Shown here: in pieces, positions 2,017 through 5,352 of the stretch
Position numbering within the stretch: the stretch's first letter is position 1
How the letters are laid out: every line of letters starts with the position of its first letter
Assembly: GCA_019359715.1 (NCBI GenBank)
Contig: JAHHGS010000033.1
Coordinates: 1-64,000, forward strand
DNA: 64,000 nt
Source of the DNA: Aphanocapsa sp. GSE-SYN-MK-11-07L
Lineage (GTDB): Bacteria > Cyanobacteriota > Cyanobacteriia > Thermosynechococcales > Thermosynechococcaceae
Direction of reading: 5' to 3'
The notes under the pieces: model-generated
What the model was told of the DNA's origin: nothing
Databases searched by the model: none
Seen by the model: the letters and a program-made list of their open reading frames with translations, nothing else
Program-made: the position numbers and the translations under genes

Positions 2017-2109
2017 ATACCAAAACTTGATGAGCGTGAATCATATAAATCTTTGTAAGACAAGCATTACAGGTATCTAATTCAGTGCAGTGCTGACAAG
2101 AATTGGTAT
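2017..2109. repeat. Possible MITE-like element (93 bp)
   Basis: The ends are imperfect inverted repeats. The left end reads ATACCAA, two mismatched bases, then CTTG. The right end (2097-2109) is its reverse complement with only those two bases different. A TA dinucleotide flanks the CCAA/TTGG tips on both sides, as expected for Tc1/mariner-IS630 type insertion at TA. There is no coding capacity. It sits just before the recombinase remnant, in its frame. Only one copy is visible, so mobility is an inference. Confidence 0.35.
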
Positions 2110-2248
2110 CAAGCATTATTCATACCGTACAGAGCAGACCTATTTGGACTGGGCTTATCGCTTTATTCTGTTTCATCACAAGCGCTATTCCAAGAAAACG
2201 AGGGGCGCTGAAATTGAAGCCTTTTTAATGCATCTTGTGCAGAAATAA
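2093..2248 (+). pseudogene. Integron-type tyrosine recombinase (IntI), N-terminal remnant
   Basis: The frame ending at TAA 2246-2248 encodes about 51 residues with the signature of the SAM-like N-terminal domain of integron integrases: HYSYRTEQTYLDW, then FILFHHKRY and EIEAFL.HL. IntI proteins carry the near-identical pattern R.HYS.RTEQ.Y..WI.RFI.FH..RHP. The frame stops where the core-binding domain should continue, and no catalytic R-H-R-Y region follows, so this is a fragment. The upstream limit is uncertain (an in-frame stop lies at 2078) and a small inverted-repeat element overlaps its start. It lies on the same strand as the cassettes, not divergent as in a standard integron, so the locus is rearranged. 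Confidence 0.65.
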
Positions 2249-2364: not shown

Positions 2365-4977
2365 CTAGGCAATTTGGAAGTCAGTGGCTTGCAGAGAGGG
2401 TGTATCAACGGTGGCAAACTGGGAACCTGTGCCCAAGCCAGCTTGGCTACTATTCTGGTTATAGAACAAGCTGCCGCTGCCTCGATTGAACACAATTTGG
2501 GCAGAGCTGGTTGCTGCTTGCAAGTCGTTCTCGACGATCGCAAACTCTCCAGCCGTGCTAAACCCCTGACCGACGGCACTGGTCAAAGACGAGAATATCG
2601 CTTTGTTCAGCACAATCTTGTCGAGTCCACTGGCAAAGCCAACAATCTTGTCGAGACCGCCGCCAGCAATCAGCAGATCATTGCCGCCACCGCCAATTAA
2701 GAGGTCATCACCACTGCCGCCAGTCAAGGTATCGTTGCCATCGCCGCCGCGCAGCGTGTTACCGCTATCGGCGCTAGGTGCAGTCGGAGCTGCCAGACCA
2801 ATCAGGTTGAATCCGCCCTTGCCGATTTCGCCCAAAGACGTGGCTGCTCCGGTGGAGAGGTCAATGCTGTACAGAGTGGAGCCAGAGGTAGCATAGGCAA
2901 AATTTACGCCATTGATTGGAGAGAAGATATCAAAGCCACTGCTGGCTCCAAAGTTAACGCCCAAGGCACCAATGGTGGTCAATTTGCCGTCATTGGGCGG
3001 ATTTTGCAGCACCAGAACATCCAAATTGGCATCAATTCCAAACAGTTGAGTTGTGCGCGTGGGTGGGATGACTCCGGTGGGAGAAGGCGGGCCAAAGAAG
3101 GCGTTAGTGTAAGCAACAGCAGTGATATTGGGGTCTTGACCGAAATTGCGATCGCCCATTGAGTACGACACATTTTTGTCTGGCTCAATGGCAGGCGTCG
3201 TTAGGTCAAAATCGCCGATCGCGCCAGTATCCACGTTTACCCGCAGGTTTTGATCGTTGCTGCCGACTAGGCGCAGGCGATCGGGTACGGGGTTAAAGTC
3301 TACGCCAGACTGCTGCCCAGCATTAAAGTTAATCGGAGAAAGGGCGCTGACCAAGCTGGCGACGCCAGTGCTGGCATTAATCGTGTAGATTTTATTGGTA
3401 TCGGTGATACCGTAGAGCAGCCCATTGGCCGGGCGGAAATCAATCCCCAGTAGGTTGCCGTCAACGCCTGTTACCTGGATTGTCTGCGCCTGGTCGATTT
3501 GATCAGGGTCAAACGCAATCAGGGCATTTCGATCCGTCAGACCAAACAGCGTCGTGCTGCTACCACCCAGCAGCAAGTCATTGCCATCGCCGCCGTTCAG
3601 CTTGTCGCTGCCCAGACCACCAATCAAGAGGTCGTTGCCGCTGCCACCCCATAGGAAGTCATTGCTGCTACCTCCATCTAGGCTGTCGTTGCCGCTGCTG
3701 CCGCTCAGGGAGTCGATGTCAGCGCCGCCCCGCAGGCTGTCATGAAGATTCCCACCGTCGAGATTGTCATTGCCCAGACCACCGATCATCCGGTCATTGC
3801 CATTGCCGCCGCGCAGGAAGTCATTGCCGTTGCCCCCGTTCAGGACATCTTGGCCGTCGTCGCCCTTGAGGGTATCTTGGCCATCATTGCCCCGCAGAGT
3901 GTCATTGCCATTGCCGCCCGACAGCAAGTCGTCGCCTAGTCCACCCACAAGCAAGTCGTTGCCATTGCCACCCTGGAGGATGTCATTGCCTTCCGCTCCC
4001 GACACAGTGGTGGCGGCCAAACCCAGCAGTTTAAATTCGCCATTGCCAATCTGCCCCAAAGACTTGGCTGCTCCGGTCGAGACGTCAATGCTATACAGGG
4101 TGGAACCAGAGGCAGCGTAGGCAAAATTTACCCCATTTACTGGGGAAAAAATGTCAAAGCCGCCCTTGGTGCCAAAGTCAACACCCAACGAGCCGATCGT
4201 CGTCAATTTGCCATCATTCGGCGGATTTTGCAGGACTAGGGTATCTAGTTTAGAGTCAATCCCAAACAGTTGAGTTGTGCGGCTGGTGGAGGGAGCGCCA
4301 GCAAAAGCGTTAGTGTAGGCAACAGCGGTAACATTCGGGTCTTGACCAAAATTGCGATCGCCCATTGGGTACGACACATTTTTGTCTGGTTCAAAGGCAG
4401 GTGTGGTGAGGTCAAAGTCGGCGATCGCTCCCGTATCGACATTCACCCGCAGGTTTTGATCGTTGCTGCCGACTAGTCGCAGGCGATCGGGCACCGGGTT
4501 AAAGTCTACGCCAGACTGCTGTCCGGCGTTGAAGCCAATCGGTGAAAGCGGGCTGACTAGAGTGGCAATTCCGGTTTTAATATCAATCGTGTAAATCTTG
4601 TTGGTATCAGTGATGCCGTAGAGCAATCCGTTGGCAGGGCGAAAATCAATCCCGATCAAGTTGCCATCTACGCCCGTGACTTGGATCTTTGTTGTCTGTT
4701 TAGGGTGGCTGGGGTCAAAGGCAACCAGCCGATTTTGATCTGCTAGCCCCAGCAATTGACTGTCACCGTTAGCCAGCAGAATGTCATCACCATCGTCACC
4801 CTTCAGAACATCGCTACCCAGTCCACCCGACAGCGTGTCGTTACCGCTACCTCCACTGAGTAAATCGCGATCGCTGTTTCCATTTAGAACATCATTTCCG
4901 CCCAGCCCAAAAATCAAGTCTCTGCTGGAAGTGCCCCGCAGTGTCTCTGCTTGGGAGGAACCAAAGATCGTCGCCAT
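2365..4977 (-). CDS. RTX-repeat protein with two DUF4394 domains
   Basis: This 870-residue protein is probably exported by a type I secretion system. Nonapeptide RTX repeats (GGxGxDxLx), which bind calcium in this family, occur near residues 10-65, about 335-475 and about 745-790. Between them lie two DUF4394-type domains with repeated NGLLYGITDTNKIYTI and RLRLVGSNDQNLRV motifs. The C-terminus lacks RTX repeats and resembles RTX secretion-signal regions. There is no Sec signal. I place the start at 4977 because AGGAG stands at good spacing before that ATG; an in-frame ATG 60 bp upstream lacks this. No secretion genes are adjacent. Its biological role is unknown; adhesion or S-layer-like functions are guesses. 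Confidence 0.85.
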   Translation of the reverse strand: MATIFGSSQAETLRGTSSRDLIFGLGGNDVLNGNSDRDLLSGGSGNDTLSGGLGSDVLKGDDGDDILLANGDSQLLGLADQNRLVAFDPSHPKQTTKIQVTGVDGNLIGIDFRPANGLLYGITDTNKIYTIDIKTGIATLVSPLSPIGFNAGQQSGVDFNPVPDRLRLVGSNDQNLRVNVDTGAIADFDLTTPAFEPDKNVSYPMGDRNFGQDPNVTAVAYTNAFAGAPSTSRTTQLFGIDSKLDTLVLQNPPNDGKLTTIGSLGVDFGTKGGFDIFSPVNGVNFAYAASGSTLYSIDVSTGAAKSLGQIGNGEFKLLGLAATTVSGAEGNDILQGGNGNDLLVGGLGDDLLSGGNGNDTLRGNDGQDTLKGDDGQDVLNGGNGNDFLRGGNGNDRMIGGLGNDNLDGGNLHDSLRGGADIDSLSGSSGNDSLDGGSSNDFLWGGSGNDLLIGGLGSDKLNGGDGNDLLLGGSSTTLFGLTDRNALIAFDPDQIDQAQTIQVTGVDGNLLGIDFRPANGLLYGITDTNKIYTINASTGVASLVSALSPINFNAGQQSGVDFNPVPDRLRLVGSNDQNLRVNVDTGAIGDFDLTTPAIEPDKNVSYSMGDRNFGQDPNITAVAYTNAFFGPPSPTGVIPPTRTTQLFGIDANLDVLVLQNPPNDGKLTTIGALGVNFGASSGFDIFSPINGVNFAYATSGSTLYSIDLSTGAATSLGEIGKGGFNLIGLAAPTAPSADSGNTLRGGDGNDTLTGGSGDDLLIGGGGNDLLIAGGGLDKIVGFASGLDKIVLNKAIFSSLTSAVGQGFSTAGEFAIVENDLQAATSSAQIVFNRGSGSLFYNQNSSQAGLGTGSQFATVDTPSLQATDFQIA
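2790..3550 (-). repeat. Internal duplication, DUF4394 copy 2
   Basis: This segment encodes the second DUF4394 domain of the RTX protein. At both DNA and protein level it closely matches 4010-4755, with long stretches identical, for example around NAGQQSGVDFNPVPDRLRLV. It differs by a short Pro-rich insertion near GVIPPT. Approximate limits were judged by eye. Confidence 0.75.
4010..4755 (-). repeat. Internal duplication, DUF4394 copy 1
   Basis: This is the N-terminal partner of the repeat at 2790-3550, in the same orientation and about 1.2 kb away. An RTX block lies between the copies. The arrangement indicates duplication within the gene of a unit made of RTX repeats plus DUF4394. Confidence 0.75.
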
Positions 4978-5352
4978 AGCTGTAACTCCTAAAAATTTAA
5001 TTTGTCTTCCGGTTGATTTCAGCCCGATCGGCATCACCCTCTGCTTAAACCCAGCGGGTGACAGGCGGATTGTCCGCCCAGCTTTTAATGCCTTAGGGGT
5101 TTTAAGAACCCGCTAAGAATTGCGAATTTTGTCAGCAAACCTGGAGCAGACCAGCATCCGGTTGCCTGCTGTCATAACTAGCAGTCAACTTGTTTGAAGT
5201 TGAATTGTTGTTCCAGTTCTATAGGTACTACCCGCTAGAGCGCCGAATGGATGCAGCAGCACTAAAAAAAGTTTGATTTGGGCTGATATTAATCCGGTTT
5301 ATTTTGTAAAACCCTTAGTTTGTAAGGGTTTTACAAAATAAACGATTCCCAT
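4978..5352. other. Intergenic region upstream of the RTX gene
   Basis: This 375-bp gap holds the RTX ribosome-binding site (AGGAG just above 4977), a short GGCGGA-ttg-TCCGCC hairpin near 5074-5088 and the strong terminator at 5298-5342. No credible ORF is present on either strand. I could not identify a promoter with confidence. Confidence 0.5.
5298..5342. terminator. Strong palindromic terminator
   Basis: A perfect 20-bp stem (5298-5317 against 5323-5342) encloses a 5-base loop. Its A/T-rich outer arms give a U-run in either direction. It begins 11 bp past the stop of the minus-strand transporter gene and insulates it from the RTX gene. Confidence 0.85.

Follow-up and report, generated by a model that had tools for sequence, protein, structure and literature searches.

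A MITE-separated remnant of an integron integrase gene in a cyanobacterium, and a dyad array at the parental attI as putative IntI accessory sites

Introduction

The core of attI1, the attachment site of class 1 integrons, consists of an L box, a short spacer and the crossover box GTTRRRY. Outside this core, attI1 has two accessory direct repeats (DR1, DR2; ~65 bp), whereas attIA has none (PMC8946536). Integrons are already known in Cyanobacteria (PMC8352920, PMC9668308), and in one survey nearly one third of the known intI genes were pseudogenes (PMC2426708).

Here we analysed a 64,000-nt stretch (hereafter the window) of the cyanobacterium Aphanocapsa sp. GSE-SYN-MK-11-07L, whose genome is a 5.1-Mb draft in 159 contigs. 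An earlier reading of the letters alone, the original prediction, had placed the remnant of an integron integrase next to cassette debris there. We consider it likely that the window holds a dead intI fragment split from its gene by a MITE, and that the parental attI takes the form of a dyad array, most likely of accessory sites for IntI.

Results

A dead piece of an integron integrase gene beside cassette remains

The part of the window concerned comprises the following features:
249-335, + strand: attC1, complete, 87 bp (RYYYAAC ... GTTRRRY), which ends a first, cut cassette
462-1901, + strand: cassette gene for a proline--tRNA ligase (proS; TIGR00408, 3e-176, 587 bits)
~1932-1951, + strand: attC2, left half only, 20 bp matching the left end of attC1 at 95% identity
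2109-2253, + strand: intI pseudogene fragment, IntI residues ~19-63, ~45 codons (profile and genome searches)
2289-2329, no strand: inverted repeat between the fragment and a convergent RTX-type gene, 17-nt arms, 88% complementary

The open reading frame on which the original prediction was based, LTRIGIKHYSYRTEQTYLDWAYRFILFHHKRYSKKTRGAEIEAFLMHLVQK* (51 residues, 2093-2248, +), is present, and its assignment to IntI was borne out. Searched against profile models, the fragment matched the NCBIfam family TIGR02249, 'integron integrase' (2.5e-9), PRK15417 (2e-8) and, above the Pfam gathering score, PF13495, the family of the N-terminal SAM-like domain (1.3e-10); neither an Xer model nor a PHROG phage family came up in this comparison. 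The protein search returned cyanobacterial integron integrases as closest relatives, as had been predicted for an IntI, and the closest solved structure is that of IntI4 (2a3v, E 0.0017). Only the peptide from 2109 on is IntI, the first residues (LTRIGI) being MITE sequence. The frame is closed by an in-frame stop at 2246-2248 and the homology runs out near 2253, a limit judged by eye from the sequence alignment, with the blastn alignment extending to 2235. Because the fragment ends at about residue 63, ahead of the catalytic R-K-HxxR-H-Y residues and the IntI-specific patch, all of which are absent, it is the remnant of an IntI gene and not an IntI. Judging from these comparisons, 2109-2253 is debris from one of the several intI genes of this genome; it is dead, without function, and as such represents an ordinary, common kind of decay.

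The same genome holds other integron parts, namely three full-length intI genes and attC sites on several contigs. The full-length genes (contigs C21, C82 and C60) score 449-471 bits with TIGR02249, for which the cut-off is 265, and the fragment is 67-72% identical to them. Aligned with relatives, the C60 and C21 integrases retain both the catalytic residues and the patch region of IntI type, and that of C60 is ~54% identical to plasmid IntI1. Further intI remains are an N-terminal scrap on C44 and a broken copy on C99. About 7 kb from the intact intI of C60 there are CRISPR-like tandem repeat arrays with a period of 61-62 (L008 461-1169).

As to the cassettes, a search for attC by R- and L-box pattern matched inside intI genes, so a covariance model was used instead. 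In attC1 the R and L boxes pair (R''/R' and L''/L'), with an extrahelical base and a folded bottom strand (z -2.5). It scores 96.6 bits in the covariance model, among whose building sequences it is itself included, and attCs from complete integrons of relatives fall in the same 87-bp family. The attC2 region (1905-2020) folds no better than shuffles, and the right half of this site is lost. Thus, the attC sites invoked in the original prediction amount to one complete site and the left half of another. The tRNA synthetase cassette may be a resistant spare; the other proline--tRNA ligase of the genome, on C105, is 29% similar to the cassette copy over part of its length and resembles the usual bacterial long form. 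Strong attCs elsewhere in the genome lie on C148 and on C103, the latter immediately behind a HigA-type antitoxin gene (TIGR02607; L045 7991-8460), a probable toxin-antitoxin cassette.

The inverted repeat at 2289-2329 is probably the terminator of the RTX-type gene and not an integron part. This gene (2365-5037, -), convergent with the intI fragment, encodes an RTX-type protein of two near-duplicate halves. At the contig start (1-160) stands the end of a transposase-like sequence, which also ends C1 beside another MITE copy.

A dyad array between the attI crossover box and intI

Upstream of an intI gene start on C54 and of the intact intI on C60, tandem dyads follow each other at ~40 bp, and the same was found in relatives. 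These dyads lie between the attI crossover box and intI, have the form TTAGRCNGA-N5/6-TCNGYCTAA and are repeated every 40-42 bp. With 9-bp arms around 5-6 bp, they are shaped as core sites of tyrosine recombinases usually are. An IntI-alignment scan of the genome collection yielded 80 named loci, and a half-site matrix (TTAGRCNGAAA) was refined, and hence trained, on 30 cyanobacterial upstream regions. These 30 loci had 4.23 dyads per 400 bp, compared to 0.11 in shuffled and 0.02 in control DNA (same loci), and the spacing of neighbouring dyads was 40-42 bp in 68 of 104 cases. Since the matrix had been trained on the same data, two further tests were run. Five-fold cross-validation retained at least three dyads in 28 of the 30 loci, and a motif-free self-similarity test gave lag peaks at 40, 41 and 80-83 in Cyanobacteria and nothing comparable in Proteobacteria, the array being absent from the proteobacterial integrons examined. 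Scanning for generic inverted repeats with 9-bp arms lacked the power to reveal the array.

Strict array clusters occurred at 24 loci in 714 kb, all directly 5' of intI and none elsewhere. Outside the training set, C60 has seven dyads, and a held-out plasmid integron of Kovacikia minuta has four, 76-195 bp from the ATG, with none else in 13 kb. For the intact intI genes on C21 and C82, no array was found within the ~170 bp of upstream DNA present. In the Kovacikia minuta plasmid (pB, L192) the first gene beyond attI encodes a DNA cytosine methyltransferase, and a TIR-domain gene follows behind intI. Two loci from unrelated hosts (L082, L089) carry near the array start a GC-rich palindrome, GCCGCGAACG...CGTTCGTCGGC, which is short-attC-like.

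The far end of the array coincides with the attI core. An AAC-ending box stands there 5-7 bp before the first half-site (exactly 6 bp in 22 of 32 loci). For three of the 32 loci the box was placed by a half-site for which no dyad had been called, and at least one placement, that of L113, is probably mistaken. On the opposite strand, this end gives an L box, a short spacer and GTTRRRY, the first array half-site occupying the L-box position of attI. On C54, on C60 and in relatives the GTTRRRY crossover box lies beside the intI start, with cassettes beyond; the covariance model found no attC adjacent to the C60 site, and relatives show the full canonical layout of intI, attI and attC. The attCs that this model detected beyond the box were canonically oriented in 25 of 25 matches from 17 loci of relatives, three of the 25 having helped to build the model. 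In addition, four copies in a genome of the same family (G003) share an identical left boundary at the AAC box, with unrelated DNA beyond it.

From its sequence we infer that the cyanobacterial attI is a putative multi-site IntI-binding region. A spacing of 40-42 bp amounts to about four turns of the helix, and therefore the dyads would point to the same face of the DNA. The half-sites of the array scored 0.700 against the L box of their own locus and 0.669 against those of other loci (permutation p 0.0016), so that the coupling between a half-site and its own L box is weak. IntI would most likely bind the half-sites as accessory sites, in the way proposed for DR1 and DR2 of attI1, but many more of them. 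Bound there, it would bring recombinase to the side of the crossover box and might also repress intI; an effect of the array may lie in raising insertion, filtering topology or repressing intI.

It is possible, if doubtful, that the array instead consists of operators for a host regulator or forms a structured RNA leader. Its units are palindromic and lie near the promoter, the dyad shape is common to many regulator sites, and at two loci (L101, L103) LexA-like boxes occur close to the ATG. These boxes, however, are separate from the array, and the array starts at the attI core. Moreover, the half-site consensus differs between two integrons of one host (L084/L092, L087/L094), so that a single shared host regulator is disfavoured. 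Against the RNA leader speak the dyad spacing of about four helical turns, which suggests protein on DNA over RNA hairpins, and the position of the array upstream of the LexA-like boxes. The boxes themselves (AGTACATCTGTTC, AGTACATATGTTC) lie between the array and the intI start, and their sequence suggests SOS control of cyanobacterial intI.

Arrays without intI and the spread of intI/attI modules

Five arrays in the host genome, where array counts are lower bounds, had no recognisable intI:
L175 1925-2225, contig C8: solo array
L176, contig C12: solo array
L177, contig C53: solo array
L178, contig C135: solo array
L189 1690-1893, contig C102: solo array

Their neighbours include housekeeping genes, ubiD on C8 and folP on C12, and a weak attC-like site in the right orientation lies 6.5 kb off on C8. 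In the related genome G003, one full-length intI stands beside at least 12 intI fragments (on its contigs C140, C72, C74, C64, C73, C7, C62, C54, C146, C20 and others), several with complete arrays and with the gene cut at differing points. Given the solo arrays of the host and the many fragments of G003, intI/attI modules seem here to be copied and to decay frequently, the window fragment being one of many remains. We would go only tentatively further, to a poly-site attI of helically phased half-site dyads whose scattered intI-less copies might serve the few intact IntI proteins in trans as additional docking sites for cassettes.

A MITE junction between the fragment and the cassettes

The fragment is joined to the cassette side by a mobile element, with the following features around the junction:
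2007-2016, + strand: left arm of a hairpin (ACACCTACTA), whose right arm stands on C54, on the right side of the MITE copy there
2015-2017, no strand: left flank triplet of the MITE, TAA, with its partner TAA on C54
2018-2108, no strand: MITE, 91 bp, ends TACCA/TGGTA, one of seven copies
2109-2111, no strand: right flank triplet of the MITE, TCA, with its partner TCA on C54, beside intI codon 18

A DNA search of the host genome with 2014-2109 returned six more copies at 94-97% identity. The element is short and non-coding, with terminal inverted repeats, a target duplication and several copies, as in a MITE; five copies have TTA on either side, an apparent target duplication. In the window, TAA flanks the element on its left and TCA on its right; on C54 the pair is reciprocal, TCA standing to the left and TAA to the right of the copy. 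To the left of the C54 MITE stands the intI gene start, MVERPKKILDQMGDAIRL. When the left side of C54 and the right side of the window were joined with one target triplet, the result was in frame (MVERPKKILDQMGDAIRLKHYSYRTEQTYLDW... / MVERPKKILDQMGDAIRLKHYSYRTEQTYLDWAYRFILFHH...). The left side of the window and the right side of C54 together gave ACACCTACTAAGATCTCAAAAATCTAGTAGGTGT, which forms a hairpin whose 10-bp arm is exact and touches the junction; 8 of 20,000 shuffles of the flanks attained this arm length.

The reciprocal triplets, together with the intI frame and the hairpin restored by re-pairing the flanks, indicate that two MITE copies have swapped partners. One copy would have inserted at codons 18-19 of intI (target TCA), and a second would have sat downstream of the proS cassette (target TAA). 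Both would then have traded flanks by recombination, in the simplest form by an inversion between opposed copies, after which the 3' portion of intI would stand next to the proS cassette, and codons 1-18 together with the attI region on C54. The remainder of intI would have been lost at ~2253. Both recombination as the mechanism and the authenticity of the junction, as opposed to an assembly error, are inferred from these patterns.

The junction could alternatively be an assembly chimera, in which case one MITE really lies within a single contiguous intI pseudogene and another interrupts the hairpin that follows the proS cassette. A misassembly across the repeat would produce the same pattern, the draft is in 159 contigs and the two MITE copies are identical over a ~55-bp core. 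However, private variants on either side of this core are ~60-70 bp apart, such that one short read would phase them, and several other MITE copies were assembled with unique flanks at both ends. On these sequence grounds we think a chimera unlikely, and less likely than a real exchange. In either case, exchange or assembly join, the intI fragment was originally not next to these cassettes.

The original prediction had seen here a former complete integron, with an inversion or rearrangement implied by the strand of the fragment. A complete integron at this spot, with intI inverted in place relative to its own cassettes, is improbable. The attC and the intI fragment are <2 kb apart and both are of the same integron type as in relatives, but the start of this intI and its attI region lie on C54, next to another flank, and the triplets assign the two sides of 2018-2108 to different original sites. 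What remains at the locus is an intI fragment on the cassette strand with a MITE junction in between; no attI array, and no strict dyad cluster, was found in the 64-kb window. A rearrangement is indeed indicated, by a MITE-to-MITE junction with mismatched triplets, and the same-strand orientation is real, yet it is the MITE exchange that accounts for it, while a complete integron at the window lacks support. Since this neighbourhood was made at a junction between two MITE copies, neither the adjacency nor the same-strand layout is original.

The GTG at 2090, the only start codon of the frame, was rejected as a gene start, as it is MITE sequence; the frame is open from there, but with its start in the MITE, its stop within the N-terminal SAM-like domain and zero catalytic residues, we dismiss a functional small protein of 52 codons as extremely improbable.

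Discussion

A literature search, with most subscription papers lying outside its reach, returned no description of attI arrays or of solo attI, and the multi-dyad attI is apparently an undescribed architecture. It was found in nearly all cyanobacterial integrons examined, a plasmid-borne one included. The recognition of attI by IntI has been described as poorly known (PMC4792948), and in the array a putative recognition sequence recurs 6-14 times per locus. The repeated half-sites, combined with natural variation between integrons of one host, would make the IntI half-site code directly testable, and beyond the Proteobacteria the dyad array offers a marker by which attI sites, stray copies included, may be found.

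Compared with the cyanobacterial chromosomal integrons, the window copy belongs to the same integrase family (TIGR02249), which the full-length copies of the host pass, but it is a split, truncated pseudogene beside cassettes that were not originally its own. As in CALINs (attC clusters that lack intI) and other decayed integrons, cassette debris lies without a working integrase nearby; unlike there, full-length intI genes are present in the same genome, and attI-type arrays occur without intI as well. The element at the junction resembles bacterial MITEs in being short and non-coding, with inverted ends, a target duplication and several copies, and departs from the usual ones in that two copies have swapped target triplets, a sign of inter-copy exchange. 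Finally, the cyanobacterial attI shares with attI1 of class 1 integrons the GTTRRRY crossover box, an L-box-like half-site 5-7 bp away and, towards intI, additional putative integrase sites (PMC8946536, PMC4792948), but extends this plan to an array of 3-7 inverted dyads, 40-42 bp apart, over ~100-350 bp.
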